NCBI GenBank assembly: GCA_023382715.1
Contig: JAHDWP010000020.1
Span: 1 to 58,341, forward strand
From: Anaerolineae bacterium
GTDB taxonomy: Bacteria > Chloroflexota > Anaerolineae > Aggregatilineales > Aggregatilineaceae
Reading direction: 5' to 3'
Length of the DNA stretch: 58,341 bases
In this document: positions 5,595 to 45,459 of the stretch, one piece after another
How positions within the stretch are numbered: the stretch's first letter is position 1
How the letters are laid out: every line of letters starts with the position of its first letter
Translations under genes and position numbers: made by a program
Notes under the pieces: generated by a model
What the model was told of the DNA's origin: nothing
The model's database searches: none
What the model saw: only the letters and a program-made list of their open reading frames with translations

Positions 5595-7256
5595 ATGACC
5601 CACCCCAACACCCTCTACTACGGCGACAACCTCGACATCCTGCGCAGCCGCGACTATTTCCCCAGCGAGTGCGTAGACCTGATCTACCTCGACCCGCCCT
5701 TCAACTCCAACCGCAGCTACAACGTGCTCTTCAAGGACGAGAGCGGCCTGGAGTCCGAGGCGCAGATCACCGCCTTCAACGATACCTGGCACTGGGGCCA
5801 CGCCGCCGAAGCGACCTGGCACGGTCTGGTGGACTACGCCCCGCCGCGCGTGGTGACGGCCATCGGCGCGCTGCGCGACCTGATCGGCCCCAACCAGATG
5901 ATGGCCTACCTGGTGATGATGGCCGCCCGACTGGTGGAGCTGCACCGCGTGCTCAAGCCGACCGGCAGCCTCTACCTGCACTGCGACCCGACGGCGAGCC
6001 ACTATTTGAAGATCGTGCTGGATGCGATCTTCGGGCCGGAGAACTACAGGAATGAGGTCGTATGGAAGCGTACAAGTAGCCACAACGATGCCAAGCGATT
6101 CGGCAGAATACACGATGTGTTGCTCTATTATTCGAAAGACGTGCAACAAGTAGCCTTTTCGCCCGTTTATGTTAGTTACTCACAGGAGTATTTAGAGGCG
6201 GAGTTCCGGCAAGATGAACAGGGACGTTGGTACAAGACCGAGAACTTGACAGCCCCATATCGCGGTGGTTCTGGCGGCAGATTTGAGTTTCGCGGGCGAA
6301 TCCCCGGCCCTTCGAGAATGTGGCGCTTGAGCCAAGAGGACATGGAGCGGCTCTGGCAGGAAGGCCGCATTATGACCGATCGCGATGGAATACCGTTATT
6401 GCGGGGCCAGATTGTATACCTGGACGAGAAGCTAGGGATGCCTGTTCAGGACTGGTGGGACGATATTCTACGTGTCGGCAACACTTCACGGGAGCGCCTG
6501 GGCTACCCCACGCAGAAGCCGCTGGCCCTGCTGGAGCGCATCGTCAGCGCCAGCAGCAACCCCGGCGACGTGGTGCTCGACCCGTTCGCCGGCTGCGGCA
6601 CGGCGGTCGCCGCCGCGCACAAGCTCGATCGCCGCTGGATCGGCATAGACATCACTCACCTGAGCATCAACCTGCTCAAGTTCCGCCTGCGCGACATGTT
6701 CGGCCTCACGCCCGGCGCGGATTACCAGGTCATCGGCGAGCCGGTGACGGTGGACGGGGCGCGCCAGCTTGCCGAAGACGACCGCTTCCAGTTCCAGTTC
6801 TGGGCGCTGTCGCTGGTGCAGGCGCGTCCGCTGGGCGGCGAGGTGGGCGGTCGGACGGGCAAGCGCGGCGCGGATCGCGGGGTGGACGGGCTGATCACCT
6901 TCATTGACGACAACACGGGCCGGCCCAAGAAGATCATCGTGCAGGTCAAGTCCGGCAAGGTCAAGAGCGGCGACATCCGCGATCTGAAGGGCACGGTGGA
7001 GCGCGAGAAAGCGGCGATGGGCGTCTTCATCACGCTGGAGCCGCCCACGCGCGAGATGGTCACCGAGGCGGTCAGCGCCGGCTTCTACCGCTCGCCGGGC
7101 TGGGGGCGTGACTACCCGCGCATCCAGATGCGCACCATCGAGGAGTTGCTGGGCGGCGCGGGGATCGAGATGCCGCTGTCGTCGGTGACGTTCAGGCAGG
7201 CGGGGCGCGTCAGGGACGAGGGGCCGCGCACGCTGAGCCTGTTCGACGAGGAGTAG
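5595..7256 (+). CDS. DNA methyltransferase fused to Mrr-like nuclease
   Basis: A 553-residue protein. Residues 1-380 form an amino-methyltransferase of the beta order: YLDPPF (catalytic motif IV, residues 32-36) precedes the target-recognition region and the SAM-binding DPFAGCGT (motif I, around residue 331). The C-terminal third (about 420-510) has a restriction-nuclease pattern: Asp431 in GVDGLITF, then Gln450-Val-Lys452 in IIVQVKSGK, as in Mrr-type PD-(D/E)XK folds. It may therefore modify and cut DNA as one chain. The central part (about 6050-6490, the likely target-recognition region) is clearly AT-richer and uses other codons than the flanks, which suggests exchange of specificity. The gene sits alone between two identical 61-bp direct repeats. 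An alternative is an orphan methylase whose C-terminal domain is a dead relic; the D and QxK residues argue against that. Confidence 0.85.
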
Positions 7257-7260
7257 GGAC

Positions 7261-7321
7261 GCTGCTCTGCTGCGCCCGGCCCAAAACCAGACTTCCGAAG
7301 TTTTGGAAACTTCGGAAGTCT
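7261..7321. repeat. 61-bp direct repeat, right copy (flanks methyltransferase)
   Basis: Second copy of the repeat at 5382-5442, starting four bases after the methyltransferase stop. Its palindromic half (7289-7321) could fold as a stem of about 15 bp in RNA and may also end transcription of the gene, although no T-run follows. Confidence 0.85.
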
Positions 7322-7339
7322 TGGCCTGAGTCTGCGCGT

Positions 7340-7370
7340 AAAAAAACCGGGCGGCCCGTAGGCCACCCGG
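7340..7370 (-). terminator. Rho-independent terminator of candidate small RNA
   Basis: Read on the minus strand, CCGGGTGGCC and GGCCGCCCGG form a 10-bp stem with one G-U pair and a 4-base loop (stem arms 7347-7356 and 7361-7370), followed at once by seven T (7340-7346). This is the strongest terminator in the window, and no minus-strand protein gene ends nearby. Confidence 0.88.
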
Positions 7371-7439
7371 CCAGGCTGCCGGACCGTGAGGGTGGGAGGG
7401 GCACGGTCTGGCGGCTCGTGGATGGGAGTTCAATCCGCT
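7340..7439 (-). ncRNA. Candidate LexA-box-controlled small RNA, about 100 nt
   Basis: A complete promoter (7444-7473) and a complete terminator (7340-7370) on the minus strand delimit a transcript of about 100 nt with no open frame of note. Its centre can form a stem (GACCGUG / CACGGUC, at 7402-7408 and 7382-7388) extended by further pairs, with a 13-nt pyrimidine loop read as CCCCUCCCACCCU. Such C-rich loops are known in small RNAs that pair with Shine-Dalgarno sequences. The transcript lies between convergent protein genes. It is not a tRNA: no cloverleaf fits. It could instead be the remains of a longer transcription unit. Confidence 0.5.
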
Positions 7440-7443
7440 TTCC

Positions 7444-7473
7444 AGTATAGCGAACACATGTTCTGTCTGTCAA
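7444..7473 (-). promoter_or_regulatory. Sigma70 promoter with perfect LexA-type box in the spacer
   Basis: On the minus strand TTGACA (7473-7468) and TATACT (7449-7444) are 18 bases apart. The spacer contains GAACATGTGTTC (7463-7452), a perfect GAAC-N4-GTTC palindrome like the LexA box of Gram-positive bacteria. The flanking GACAGACAGAACAT also occurs in the two phage-operon promoters at 43.8 kb and, with a GA insertion, at 36.8 kb. Confidence 0.8.
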
Positions 7474-7504
7474 GAAGTGCAACCTTAAAGTTTTGACGCG
7501 CTTG

Positions 7505-9550
7505 TTAGCCCGCCGCCCGCACGTAGAACAGCCACAGCGCCTTGCGCAGCGGCACGTCGTCGTGTGGGCTGCCCGTCACGGGGTGCGGGCCGAACGTCTC
7601 GGTCAGGCGGGCCAGCGTCGTGTTGTCGCCGGGCGGGAAGAAGATCGCCAGGTCTGCGTCGCGCGGCAGCGCATCCAGCATGGCCGTGAACTCGTCCGGC
7701 GCGGAGACGAACACCTGCAAGTCGTCGGCCACAAAGTTAAGCAGGCGCTGGGCGTCGCTCTGCGGCAGTGCCGGGCCGTCCACCAGCAGGTAGATGCGCG
7801 TGCCGGGTGGGGAGTCTGTGACGCGCAGCAGGGCATCCTCCACGTCGTAGGCCACGTGCTGGCGCACCTCGACGTTGAACGTCTCCAGGAACGGGCCGAA
7901 GTAGTATGCTGCGCCGGGCAGCGCCAGCGCCAGGGCCAGGATCAGCGCCAGCGCGGTTTGCGCGGCACCTGGCCAGCGGCGCGGCCACAGCAAAGCCAGC
8001 AGGTCGCCGACGCCCAGCGCGATCAGCAGCGCCAGCGCCGGGAAGACGAGCACGTAGCGCGCGGTGACGGCGCTCTCGACCAGCAGCGCGTTGCCCGCCG
8101 ACGTGCCCAGCAGCCAGGCCAGCGGCAGGACGCCCGGCGTCCGCCAGCGCCAGGCGGCGAACACCCCCCCCAGCAGCAGCGCGGGCACGGCGCAGGGCAG
8201 CACGAGGGCGTACTTTCCCCCGTAGTACAGGTAATAGTGGTAGAGCGTGTTCTCCGGTGAATTGACGTAGTGCAGCAGCGAGTGCTGGAAGCGCGCCAGG
8301 CGTGCCCCTGGCGTGTTCGGCTCGCGCCCGCTGTCCCAATAGAGGTCGTCCAGCTCGGTCTTGTCCAGCCGGTCAAACAGCGGGTGATTGCCCCCGGCGA
8401 GCGTGATGTACGCCGGCGCGGCCACGATCACAAAGGCCAGCAGCGCCAGCAGCACGCCGCGCCCCGACGGGCGCGGTCGCCAGCAGGCGAAACCGACGGC
8501 CAGCCAGGTCGCCGCCAGCAGCGGGTAGAGGATGCGCCCGCCCTCGTAGAAGTACTGCGTCAGGCCGAGGGCCACGCCGCCGAGCGCGTAGCCTGTCCGC
8601 CGGCCCGTCCGCCAGCCCCAGCCCAGCAGTCCCAGGGCCAGCGTGCCAAAGAGCGGGTCGGCGATGTTGTTGAGCGCCAGGCGGCTGTAGTGCAGATGCG
8701 GCGGGAAGGTCAGCAGCAGCAGCGCCGCGATCAGCGCCGTGCGCCGCCCGTACAGCGCGCGGCCCAGCAGGTACAGCGCGGGCACGGTCAGCGCGCCCAG
8801 GACGGCGCTGAGGGCGCGCAGCCCGGCCAGGTTGCGCCCGATCAGCGCGGCCAGCCCTGCCTGTCCGTAGGAGAAGACGAACGGGAACGAGGCCGAGGTG
8901 GGCATCGGCGTCAGCAGCCTGACATCGGGGAAGTCGCGGAAGTACGTCGCGCCGAGCGCGAAGTGGCTCTCGTCCACCAGCACGCGCACCGCCTCGCCGA
9001 GGCTCACTGCCCGCAGGCCGAGCGCCGCCCCGCTCAGCGCCAGGAGCAGGGTGGCTTCGCGCGCGCTCGCCCCGCGCAGGGCGGGTCGCCCCACCCCGCC
9101 CAGGCCCCACGCCACGAGCAGGATGCCCCCCGCCAGCAGCGCGGCCTGCGCGTGATGCGACAGCGTGCGCAGGGTCTCGATGCCGATCAGCGCCGCGTTC
9201 GCCTCGGTGACGACGGCCAGGGCCAGCAGCCCCGGCACGGTCAGCGCCCAGGCCCAGCGCGGATGCAGCGCCGTCAGGCGGGGCGCGGCCTGACGCGGCG
9301 CGTCTCCGCGCGCGCGGCTCAGCGCCAGCGCCACGATCAGCAGCAGCGCCCCCGTCGCAAAAGCCCAGGGCGCATAGGCGGCGTAATAATCTTTGGGGCC
9401 GGGCGTGGGGCGATAGTGTACCAGGCTCTCAAGCTGCGGGCGGAAGCCGTAGGCGCTGGCGGCCATGCACACGGCGGCGAGCAGCGCCAGGGCGCGGGCA
9501 GCCAGGGCGCGGTAAGGGAGTCTGGCAGGCGGGGAGGGAGCTAAGCGCAC
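7505..9550 (-). CDS. GT-C-type membrane glycosyltransferase (ArnT/PMT-like)
   Basis: About 681 residues with 11-13 hydrophobic helices, followed by a soluble C-terminal part of about 130 residues. An acidic pair in the first large loop (VLVDESHFALG) is placed as the catalytic Asp/Glu of ArnT/PMT-type enzymes that use polyprenyl-phosphate sugars. HLHYSRLALNNIADPLFGTL is a typical motif of family 39-like proteins. The likely role is sugar transfer at the outer face of the membrane to lipid or protein. No ATG lies near the first helix; a GTG at 9550 is taken as the start, since an ATG at 9652 would read through part of a repeat. The gene stands alone and its acceptor cannot be told from context. 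Confidence 0.75.
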   Translation of the reverse strand: MRLAPSPPARLPYRALAARALALLAAVCMAASAYGFRPQLESLVHYRPTPGPKDYYAAYAPWAFATGALLLIVALALSRARGDAPRQAAPRLTALHPRWAWALTVPGLLALAVVTEANAALIGIETLRTLSHHAQAALLAGGILLVAWGLGGVGRPALRGASAREATLLLALSGAALGLRAVSLGEAVRVLVDESHFALGATYFRDFPDVRLLTPMPTSASFPFVFSYGQAGLAALIGRNLAGLRALSAVLGALTVPALYLLGRALYGRRTALIAALLLLTFPPHLHYSRLALNNIADPLFGTLALGLLGWGWRTGRRTGYALGGVALGLTQYFYEGGRILYPLLAATWLAVGFACWRPRPSGRGVLLALLAFVIVAAPAYITLAGGNHPLFDRLDKTELDDLYWDSGREPNTPGARLARFQHSLLHYVNSPENTLYHYYLYYGGKYALVLPCAVPALLLGGVFAAWRWRTPGVLPLAWLLGTSAGNALLVESAVTARYVLVFPALALLIALGVGDLLALLWPRRWPGAAQTALALILALALALPGAAYYFGPFLETFNVEVRQHVAYDVEDALLRVTDSPPGTRIYLLVDGPALPQSDAQRLLNFVADDLQVFVSAPDEFTAMLDALPRDADLAIFFPPGDNTTLARLTETFGPHPVTGSPHDDVPLRKALWLFYVRAAG

Positions 9551-9802
9551 GGTCGTTCTCTCGCGGCGGTGGCTCGGACGAACCTGCTTCGTGGGCAATG
9601 CTAGTGCATATTGGTGGAAGTCCGCCAGTAGTTGCTCGCTGTCTCCCCCCACCCCAAACCCCTCCCCCGCAAGGAGGGAGGGGCTGAAGGCCTGCGCTCT
9701 GCTCCCTTCCCCCAGCCGAGCCAGGGGAAGGGGAGAGCCGCCTGCCAGATCATCCCCCTCTCTGGCTCGGTTGGAGGGGGGGACTGAGGGAGAGGCGTAT
9801 CC
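9551..9802. repeat. Bipartite double-hairpin repeat between two minus-strand genes
   Basis: Bases 9640-9785 hold the repeat made of CCCCCACCCCAAACCCCTCC, a hairpin of CCTCCC arms, CTCTGCTCCCTTCCCCC and a second hairpin, here followed by a CCCCCTCTCTGGCTCGG hairpin. It separates the glycosyltransferase from the cysH-epimerase pair. Confidence 0.65.
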
Positions 9803-10810
9803 CTACGCGCCTTCTTCCTGCCAGGACTCGGTACCCAGGGGCACGAACCCGCGCAGATGGTCGAGCAGCTCAGCCAGCCCCGCTTCCAGGCCCACCTGGG
9901 GGTACCAGCCCAGCCCGTTGAGGCGGCTCTCGCTCACCGCCAGCGACAGGTGGGTGAGCACATCCTGCTCGGTGAAGCGCACCTGCGCCGATGGGCGCAG
10001 CGCGCGCAGGGCGGCGACCATGTCCAGCACCCGCGCGTTCTCGCCGACGACGTTATACGTTTCGCCCGCCACCTGCTCCACGTGGGTCAGCGCGAAGCGA
10101 ATGGCCTGGCTGGCATCGGCCACGTGCAGCAGCGGGCGACGCTGCTCGCCCGTGCCGTACACGGTCAGGGGACGGCCCACGCCCGCCAGATAAGCCAGGC
10201 GATTGGCCACCGCGTCGAAGCGCACGGCGGGCGCCCAGCCAAACGCCGATCCCAGGCGCAGGACGGTCACGCGCAGCCTGCCCGCCGCCTGCAGAGCCAG
10301 CAGCTCGCGCTCGGCGCGCAGCTTGCTCTCGGCATATGGCCCCAGCGGGCGGCAGATCGCGCTTTCGTCGAAAGGGTGCGCTGCAGAGATGGGCGACCCG
10401 GCCACCGCGTCCACCGGGCCATAGACGGCGGCGCTGCTGGTGTAGATCAGGTGGGCCACACCCGCTTCAGCCGCGGCCCGCCCAACGGTCGCCGATCCCC
10501 AGTGATTGACCTGCTCGATCCAGCCGGGCGGCCCAAAGGCGAGCGGCGTGCGCACGATGGCCGCCATGTGCACCACCGCCCACACGTCGCGCATGGCCAG
10601 GCCCAGGCCCGCGCCGTCCAGAATGTCGCCTTCCACGAACTGGTAGCGGCCTCTCGCGGGCAGATCGAGCAGCGAGTGAAACGTCTCGCGCTGCAAATTG
10701 TCATAGATGCGGATCAGGCAGTCGTCGAAGGCCGGGTCTGCGGCCAGGTCGCGGATCAGGCGCGAGCCGAGATAGCCGGCACCGCCGGTGACCAGCAGGG
10801 TGCGCGTCAT
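9803..10810 (-). CDS. NAD-dependent sugar-nucleotide epimerase/dehydratase
   Basis: A 335-residue extended SDR. TGGAGYLGS (near residue 8) binds NAD, TSSAAVYG holds the catalytic Ser and YAESK the Tyr/Lys pair. The substrate cannot be named; the PFDES and NVVGENARVLDMV stretches resemble 3-beta-HSD/UDP-glucose-4-epimerase-like proteins. Its ATG overlaps the cysH stop (ATGA), so it is translated together with cysH, an unusual partner for a sulfur-assimilation gene. Confidence 0.85.
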   Translation of the reverse strand: MTRTLLVTGGAGYLGSRLIRDLAADPAFDDCLIRIYDNLQRETFHSLLDLPARGRYQFVEGDILDGAGLGLAMRDVWAVVHMAAIVRTPLAFGPPGWIEQVNHWGSATVGRAAAEAGVAHLIYTSSAAVYGPVDAVAGSPISAAHPFDESAICRPLGPYAESKLRAERELLALQAAGRLRVTVLRLGSAFGWAPAVRFDAVANRLAYLAGVGRPLTVYGTGEQRRPLLHVADASQAIRFALTHVEQVAGETYNVVGENARVLDMVAALRALRPSAQVRFTEQDVLTHLSLAVSESRLNGLGWYPQVGLEAGLAELLDHLRGFVPLGTESWQEEGA

Positions 10811-11532
10811 GTCTTGTGCTCCTGGTCGGGGCTGGGCGGCTGGTGCAGGGCGTCTGTGTGCAGGCCGCACTCGGTCTTGCCCGTGCCCGCCCAACGCCCG
10901 GCCCGCTCGTCACCGCCGAAGGCCGGGACGGTGCACGGCGCGCAGCCGACGCTCAGGTAGCCCTGCGCCAGCAGCGGGTGCGCGGGCAGATCGTGGTGAT
11001 GGCTGTAGCGCCAGACATCCTCGCGCGTCCACCCGGCCAGCGGGTTGATCTTCACCCCCCCCTGCGGCAATGGCTCCACCACCTGAGCGCCCGCGCGCTG
11101 AGGGGTCTGGTCGCGCCGGATGCCGCTGATCCAGGCGTCGAGATCGCGCAGGGCGCGCTGCATGGGCAGCACCTTGTGCACGTAGCAGCACCGATCCGGG
11201 TCGCGGCGATAGAGCGACTCGGTGCGGGCTGCTGCCTGCTGCGGGTCCGGGCGCACAATCTGCACGGTCAGCCCGAAGCGCGCGATCAGCTCATCGCGGA
11301 AAGCCAGCGTCTCCGGGAAGTGGTAGCCGGTGTCGAGGAAGAGCACCGGCACCTGCGGGCAGACCTGGCTGATCAGGTGCAGCAGGGGCACGCTCTGCGT
11401 CTGAAACGAAGACGTGGCGGCCAGGCGCGGCATGAAGCGCCCCGTCGCCCAGGCGAGCACGGCAGCAGGATCAGCACCTATAAAGCGGGCGTTGAGCGCG
11501 CTGGCTTCGTCCGGCGACATGGTGACCGGCAT
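10807..11532 (-). CDS. cysH: Assimilatory adenylyl-sulfate (APS) reductase
   Basis: A 241-residue protein of the PAPS/APS reductase family that reduces adenylyl sulfate to sulfite with thioredoxin. The Cys115-Cys116 and Cys197-x2-Cys200 pairs are the four ligands of a 4Fe-4S cluster, which marks the APS-using type. The C-terminal KTECGLH (Cys222) is the catalytic thiol motif, and SSFQTQSVPLLHL and LFLDTGYHFPETL are typical of the nucleotide site. The ATG follows GGGGAGAG. A TATAAT (11569-11574) lies upstream. The downstream epimerase is coupled by an ATGA overlap. Confidence 0.93.
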   Translation of the reverse strand: MPVTMSPDEASALNARFIGADPAAVLAWATGRFMPRLAATSSFQTQSVPLLHLISQVCPQVPVLFLDTGYHFPETLAFRDELIARFGLTVQIVRPDPQQAAARTESLYRRDPDRCCYVHKVLPMQRALRDLDAWISGIRRDQTPQRAGAQVVEPLPQGGVKINPLAGWTREDVWRYSHHHDLPAHPLLAQGYLSVGCAPCTVPAFGGDERAGRWAGTGKTECGLHTDALHQPPSPDQEHKT

Positions 11533-45068: not shown

Positions 45069-45121
45069 TTGACAGCCAGCGACGCTCTCCGCTATACTGG
45101 CAATCAAACGAACAGGTGTTC
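45069..45121 (+). promoter_or_regulatory. Promoter with perfect LexA-type box upstream of the lexA-like gene
   Basis: TTGACA (45069-45074) and TATACT (45093-45098) with an 18-base spacer form a near-consensus promoter. GAACAGGTGTTC (45110-45121), a perfect GAAC-N4-GTTC palindrome, lies just after the expected transcription start. This is the arrangement for negative autoregulation. Confidence 0.8.
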
Positions 45122-45207: not shown

Positions 45208-45459
45208 GTGAGCGAGAAGTATCCACCCACGCGCGAGCGGGTGTTCCGCTTCATCGTTGAGTACAAGCGCCAGCACGATGGTCTCTCACCGGCTATCAAA
45301 GAGATCAGCCGCGCGTGCGTGTTGCACACCTCCACCGTGAAGTACCACCTGCTCAAGCTGGAAAACCAGGGGCGCATCCGCATCAACGGCCGGCGCGCCA
45401 TCGAGGTCATCGGCGGCGTGTGGAACCTGCCCGACCAGCCAGAGGCTCCCGCGCCGTGA
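45208..45459 (+). CDS. LexA-type DNA-binding domain protein lacking the peptidase domain
   Basis: An 83-residue protein that matches the N-terminal winged helix of LexA: PTRERVFRFIVEYKRQHDGL, SPAIKEISRACVL, then HTSTVKYHLLKLENQGRIRI. The S24 self-cleavage domain is absent; the frame stops soon after VWNLPDQPEAPAP. It should bind DNA but cannot self-cleave on RecA activation. It may be a SOS antagonist, a phage-type repressor or a regulator of the neighbouring phage genes. GTG start with GGAGG seven bases upstream. Confidence 0.85.
   Translation: MSEKYPPTRERVFRFIVEYKRQHDGLSPAIKEISRACVLHTSTVKYHLLKLENQGRIRINGRRAIEVIGGVWNLPDQPEAPAP

Follow-up and report, generated by a model that had tools for sequence, protein, structure and literature searches.

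The minus strand of the window, which is the whole stretch of 58,341 nucleotides that was analysed, carries a short unit between positions 7473 and 7340, consisting of a sigma70 promoter, a predicted LexA box in the promoter spacer, a hairpin with a C-rich loop and a terminator. The unit is conserved in related genomes with a covarying stem, boxes of the same type lie at lexA and one recA, and the loop is complementary to the ftsZ leader in four genomes. Our preferred reading, to which we assign a probability of about 0.6, is that the unit encodes a free-standing, LexA-repressed, damage-induced and trans-acting small RNA, the loop of which would pair with G-rich leaders, ftsZ being the likeliest target.

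Architecture and coding potential of the unit

The unit was read base by base. On the minus strand, the -35 hexamer TTGACA (7473-7468) and the -10 hexamer TATACT (7449-7444) are separated by a spacer of 18 nt, and the predicted LexA box GAACATGTGTTC (7452-7463) lies entirely within this spacer. Both hexamers and the GAAC-N4-GTTC motif are present in all six homologues. A consensus scan of positions 6400 to 8600 returned a single promoter-like site (11/12), compared with a mean of 0.1 in shuffled sequences. Taking the 5' end as the inferred transcription start, 6-7 nt past the -10 hexamer, the predicted small RNA would be about 98 nt long (7340-7437, minus strand); this assignment is based on the fold, the homologues and the absence of a common complete open reading frame.

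Fold and alignment delimit a stem with a 5' arm GCCAGACCGTG (7402-7412) and a 3' arm CACGGTCCGGC (7378-7388). Between the arms, direct reading places a 13-nt C-rich apical loop, CCCCTCCCACCCT (7389-7401), which is the proposed pairing site and the core of which is kept in the genus. The 5' arm in the window contains one A.C mismatch; the stem at locus L009 is perfect. An intrinsic terminator hairpin with its T-tail (7340-7372) was found by reading, scan and fold. Its stem begins at 7372 and the seven T occupy positions 7346-7340. The fold of the transcript of about 100 nt has a z-score of -4.0, and none of 200 shuffled sequences was equally stable. The promoter, in-spacer box, stem, 13-nt loop and seven-T terminator claimed in an earlier sequence-only reading of this DNA were all found as described, but the terminator stem has 11 pairs in the fold or 12 in the scan, rather than the 10 announced. 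Searching the whole window with Rfam at gathering score gave no match.

The same reading held that no protein gene lies within the unit, and none was found. One of several overlapping minus-strand frames (6486-7457) had no Pfam match, and the reading frames of the six homologues were compared. SOS-induced small membrane peptides such as DinQ and TisB are known, and some GTG-started frames remain open in close pairs of homologues, as would be expected if the transcript were a minimal mRNA encoding an SOS-induced peptide. However, no complete frame (start and stop, at least 8 codons) is common to the homologues. Among frames of at least 8 codons, one has a stop (11 codons, in G011, its start coinciding with the first base of the analysed segment); the others have GTG or TTG as start codon and continue past the transcript end. 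Moreover, indels of 2 and 5 nt separate the homologues. A peptide of the TisB/DinQ kind was rejected for lack of a conserved short frame of that length with start and stop, and this explanation is very improbable.

The unit is preceded on the same strand by a PMT-type glycosyltransferase gene (7505-9652) and is faced by a DNA methylase gene (5595-7256). Just past the terminator lies a perfect 15-bp inverted repeat, AGACTTCCGAAGTTT (7289-7321), parts of which were also found at six further genomic positions and at two in L040. Judging from these copies, it is predicted to be a member of a dispersed palindromic repeat family.

Conservation and covariation in related genomes

A DNA search of 101 genomes detected the unit at 85% identity in G004 and at 70% in G003 and G002. 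Within the order (154 genomes), a covariance model built from the window and G004 copies reached E <= 1 in seventeen genomes. Apart from the four strong matches, 15 loci were read, of which two, L081 and L082, were accepted. The accepted matches are in G000 (the genome of the window), G002, G003 and G004, all from one genus, and in G005 and G011, from two other genera of the family. Their E-values are 1.7e-36 and 9.3e-36 (both model-building copies), 1.5e-16, 1.7e-16, 3.3e-6 and 0.0025. The loop is C10 in L081 and UUUUCCCCACCCCGCGG in L082; box, promoter and terminator are retained in both. L082 is the weakest homologue (E 0.0025, poor T-tail). The loops of these two distant homologues are C-rich, with no exact sequence in common. 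Among the remaining order matches (L083-L095), several were box-bearing promoters in front of reading frames, and the rest were without a convincing unit.

The covariance search in related genomes, which had been suggested on the basis of the window's sequence, thus found promoter, box, stem, loop and terminator kept in 6 of the 18 genomes of the family (three genera), including four of the five genomes of the window's own genus. The full match was absent in G001 (same genus, 80% complete) and in 11 other family genomes. In G006 and G017 the match was restricted to the promoter.

A plain pattern (box, -10 hexamer and C-rich run) was found at 11 places in 10 of the 154 order genomes, namely the same six units and five unrelated places, and its backward control at none. 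In the class, the pattern matched 7 of 396 genomes, corresponding to the window's unit, L138 and five others. The covariance search of the class reached E <= 0.1 in 88 of the 396 genomes and returned 29 loci besides the window's. For 16 of these, the sequence behind a perfect box was read: 15 showed, by eye, a promoter before a reading frame, and one was L138. The latter (G155:C218:10592-10699, minus strand; another family of the class) displays a LexA-box promoter, a hairpin with the loop UCCCCCC and a terminator, an arrangement that possibly represents another SOS small RNA with C-rich loop, unrelated to the first. The hairpin at L095 (G112:C44, near locus 1530) is strong (z -4.9) and has a C7 loop; no LexA box was seen in the stretch before it.

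Across the six homologues, 97.6% of the cells of the structure are paired, compared with 30-43% for slid structures, and the terminator helix is 100% paired. Eight pairs are changed on both sides (shuffled mean 3.5), in an alignment that had been fitted to the structure. Folded separately, the four genus members, L081 and L082 each formed a hairpin with a C-rich loop and a terminator hairpin. The loop core CCCCTCCCACC is invariant in the four unit-bearing genus members, the overall identity of which is 70-85%. The stem letters vary, and much of the terminator is also kept within the genus. We consider it highly probable that the unit is a real small RNA gene.

In G003, the unit follows an epimerase gene which is the orthologue of window gene 9803-10894, the glycosyltransferase gene being missing between the two. 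Because this copy is syntenic, the copies within the genus were inherited in place rather than placed independently, although their immediate neighbours differ. No Pfam match was obtained in the scanned flanks of the G005 unit; a CorC/CNNM-type protein and a TPR protein are encoded near the G011 unit. Elsewhere in the window, at 28-38 kb and mostly on the minus strand, a gene cluster with a prohead protease match (PF04586) has its order kept on contig C32 of G003, with about 59-89% protein identity. Rather than a recent prophage, this cluster is perhaps a domesticated one or a gene transfer agent.

The predicted LexA box and its probable SOS link

The perfect box AGAACNNNNGTTC has 17 matches in the genome (14 distinct places) versus 11 for the backward control. 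A number so near to chance is what would be seen if the box were fortuitous and the small RNA constitutive or under other control. Against this, the box is kept at the same place in all six homologues while its four central bases vary, and the layout of the lexA promoter is identical. We therefore consider the box meaningful because it is placed in the promoter and conserved, a perfect box alone not being rare in this genome; a fortuitous box is improbable.

G000 contains one full LexA (TIGR00498, L096) and two RecA genes above cut-off (L145 and L146). The lexA promoter carries a perfect box, TTGACATCGAACATAGGTTCGGCCTATAAT, in its spacer, exactly as in the small RNA unit. A promoter box with one mismatch is present at the recA of L146, and no box, with up to one mismatch allowed, was found near the start of the recA of L145. 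Other covariance matches in the class and order are frequently promoters with a box in front of reading frames. Six proteins of related genomes located behind such promoters were identified as four radical SAM proteins, one AlkZ-like DNA glycosylase and one unmatched protein. Two of the four radical SAM proteins, compared with NCBIfam, matched TIGR03916 (putative DNA modification/repair) below its cut-off. Since GAAC-N4-GTTC occurs at lexA, at one recA (with one mismatch) and at putative repair-type genes, it is likely to be the LexA box of this genome. A box that overlaps the promoter and is conserved in orthologues, the criterion for a LexA regulon member, is found in all six homologues. Control of the small RNA gene by LexA is thus predicted, and we consider it very probable. 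As a prediction, the SOS-linked small RNA put forward earlier stands: the unit is conserved (6/18), its stem covaries, and the same box occurs at lexA and at one recA.

Two further boxes were observed. At L111 (G000:C24), a LexA-box promoter precedes the gene of a glyoxalase/bleomycin-resistance-type protein (PF00903). In the window, an 83-residue reading frame (45208-45459, plus strand) matches the LexA DNA-binding domain (PF01726) alone, and a perfect GAAC-N4-GTTC box lies about 90 nt upstream (45110-45121). This protein is a possible LexA-like repressor without protease domain.

Candidate targets and comparison with known systems

The sequence-only reading had proposed two targets, the genes of the capsid protein and of a protein at 49 kb. 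The capsid site (36192, minus strand) forms a 6-bp run with the loop and the 49-kb site (49062, minus strand) a 7-bp run. Runs of at least 6 bp occur in 64 of 521 genes within -25 to -1, versus 24 of 521 within -90 to -66; by complementarity count, both the capsid gene and the 49-kb gene are unremarkable and gain no support as targets. The 49-kb gene nevertheless comes top of 396 upstream regions by net energy and may therefore still be a target. In the net-energy ranking of the G000 loop, an ssb-like gene (identified by eye from its start) is second, and the leader of the LexA-domain protein at 45 kb in the window is third; neither is put forward as a target here.

The higher frequency of complementarity at ribosome sites, together with distant loops that are C-rich and share no exact sequence, could indicate that the loop of an SOS small RNA acts generally against the Shine-Dalgarno sequences of many mRNAs, broadly damping translation during damage. 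Two results argue against this. Twenty shuffled loops of the same composition found 8-bp sites in 28-85 genes, compared with 53 of 1274 for the real loop, and the enrichment was dismissed as being not above that of shuffled loops. In addition, the exact loop is conserved in the genus beyond the need of a generic C-run. We regard this general action as unlikely. C-rich loops that otherwise differ would also be compatible with an SOS RNA that binds a protein instead of mRNA, and proteins that bind C-rich RNA, for instance Rho, a KH protein or a cold-shock protein, would be suited to a loop presented in this way. Here again, the exact conservation of the loop in the genus and the 12-bp match to the ftsZ leader favour pairing, and protein binding is improbable. 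The small RNA would rather act by pairing of its loop in trans, which we consider fairly probable.

The ftsZ gene was examined in six genomes, a choice prompted by Klebsiella DinR. Its ribosome site was discarded as the pairing site, the motif AGGAGGG being a generic, unspecific strong Shine-Dalgarno sequence in all six. Further upstream, the leader contains a site complementary to the loop over 8 bp in G000 and G004 (GGGTGGGA) and over 12 bp in G003 (GAGGTGGGAGGG) and G002 (AGGTGGGAGGGG). In these four genus members, the sites lie 96-99 nt before the start codon and 15-19 nt past the inferred ftsZ transcription start. Net energies of the loop/ftsZ pairing were -8.6 (G000), -5.0 (G004), -14.8 (G003) and -18.2 kcal/mol (G002), and with a different leader cut -9.4, -11.5, -15.2 and -17.6 kcal/mol, respectively. 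The site is part-folded, with an opening cost of 6.7-10.7 kcal/mol, and far from the ribosome site.

Among 2000 shuffled ftsZ leaders, the run was reached by 74 for G000, 113 for G004, none for G003 and G002, 204 for G005 and 1984 for G011. With the ribosome site left aside, the G000 and G004 ftsZ leaders were equalled by 6 of 396 upstream regions, and those of G003 and G002 only by the G003 ftsZ region itself. The G005 and G011 leaders gave no support: equally good matches were found in 39 and 394, respectively, of the 396 background regions. By gapped duplex energy, the regions as good were 49 (G000), 51 (G004), 1 (G003), 2 (G002), 62 (G005) and 320 (G011) of 396; ftsZ is therefore unremarkable in G000 and G004 by that measure. 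By net energy of perfect runs, the corresponding numbers were 7 (G000), 3 (G004), 2 (G003, ftsZ included) and 1 (G002).

In a comparison of 110 reciprocal-best ortholog pairs from two genomes, each with its own loop, based on home-made gene calls and with ftsZ deliberately included, ftsZ came first (8 and 12 bp; runner-up 9 and 7). It was also top among 408 G003 genes. A scan of four genomes for the loop core's exact complement, GGTGGGAGGGG, yielded 13 places, including the small RNA itself four times; because the backward control is equally frequent (13), this count is at chance. One of the nine remaining places is the G002 ftsZ leader; two places with the exact 11-mer, L171 and L174, were examined for reading frames only.

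The support comes from two pairs of closely related genomes and therefore amounts to about two independent observations. The specificity of the loop is not clearly co-evolved, because the loop of G000 is a match for the ftsZ sites of G002 and G003 as well. Since 8-bp runs are not rare in G000 (53 of 1274 genes), the site lies 96-99 nt upstream and it was not seen in two other genera, ftsZ is kept as a hypothesis. It is the best single candidate target that we found and was absent from the earlier list; the odds that it is the true target are somewhat less than even.

The mechanism that we propose would run as follows. LexA would occupy the box in the promoter spacer and repress the small RNA gene. 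Upon DNA damage, RecA would trigger LexA cleavage, and RNA polymerase would make a transcript of about 100 nt ending at its own terminator. The stem would present the single-stranded C-rich loop to target mRNAs; by trans pairing with a G-rich segment close to their 5' end, the loop would lower their expression. With ftsZ as the likeliest target found, less FtsZ would be made, possibly through mRNA decay or a refolded leader, and cell division would be held back during DNA repair. More tentatively still, this stand-alone, LexA-repressed small RNA may serve a Chloroflexota lineage as its SOS division checkpoint, silencing ftsZ near the mRNA 5' end as an RNA counterpart of protein division inhibitors, independently of Klebsiella DinR. 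Should ftsZ prove to be the target, SOS control of cell division through RNA would exist in two distant lineages. A small RNA that stands alone and has an SOS promoter of its own would make a cleaner case. Literature searches, with subscription journals mostly outside their range, returned no publication dealing with SOS-controlled small RNAs in Chloroflexota, nor any for exact phrases describing SOS- or LexA-controlled sRNAs.

Rfam families were considered both at gathering score and at E up to 10, and none fits the window RNA; 6C was not among the matches up to E 10. The small RNA sX13 of Xanthomonas carries C-rich loops. Its family (RF02232) gave a weak whole-length match of 18.4 bits (E 0.2, chance level; gathering score 50 bits). 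For SOS promoters, GAAC-N4-GTTC is described as the LexA box of Firmicutes and Actinobacteria, with the regulon analysis extended to Sphaerobacteraceae (PMC3323433). The box is the same here, but it drives a non-coding unit.

The C-rich loops of actinobacterial 6C/B11 are proposed to pair with a G-tract in the 5' leader, and a title cited there states that 6C binds its targets via C-rich loops without RNA chaperones (PMC10470900). The proposed action of a C-rich loop on a leader G-tract is alike. B11, as presented in that source, has two C-rich loops, whereas the window RNA has one, plus the terminator; the term SOS is absent from the main text of the B11 paper (PMC10470900).

Klebsiella pneumoniae DinR is a LexA-controlled small RNA which represses ftsZ; it is processed from the 3' end of the dinI mRNA, depends on Hfq and occupies the ftsZ ribosome site (PMC10907235). 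LexA control, the proposed target ftsZ and action on the 5' part of the mRNA would be common to both RNAs. In contrast to DinR as described there, the unit of the window RNA includes both a promoter and a terminator, and the candidate ftsZ site lies 96-99 nt before the start codon, in four of six genomes. By the tests made, the window RNA falls outside 6C/B11, sX13 and DinR, and it would combine a DinR-like connection from LexA to ftsZ with pairing of the 6C/B11 type.
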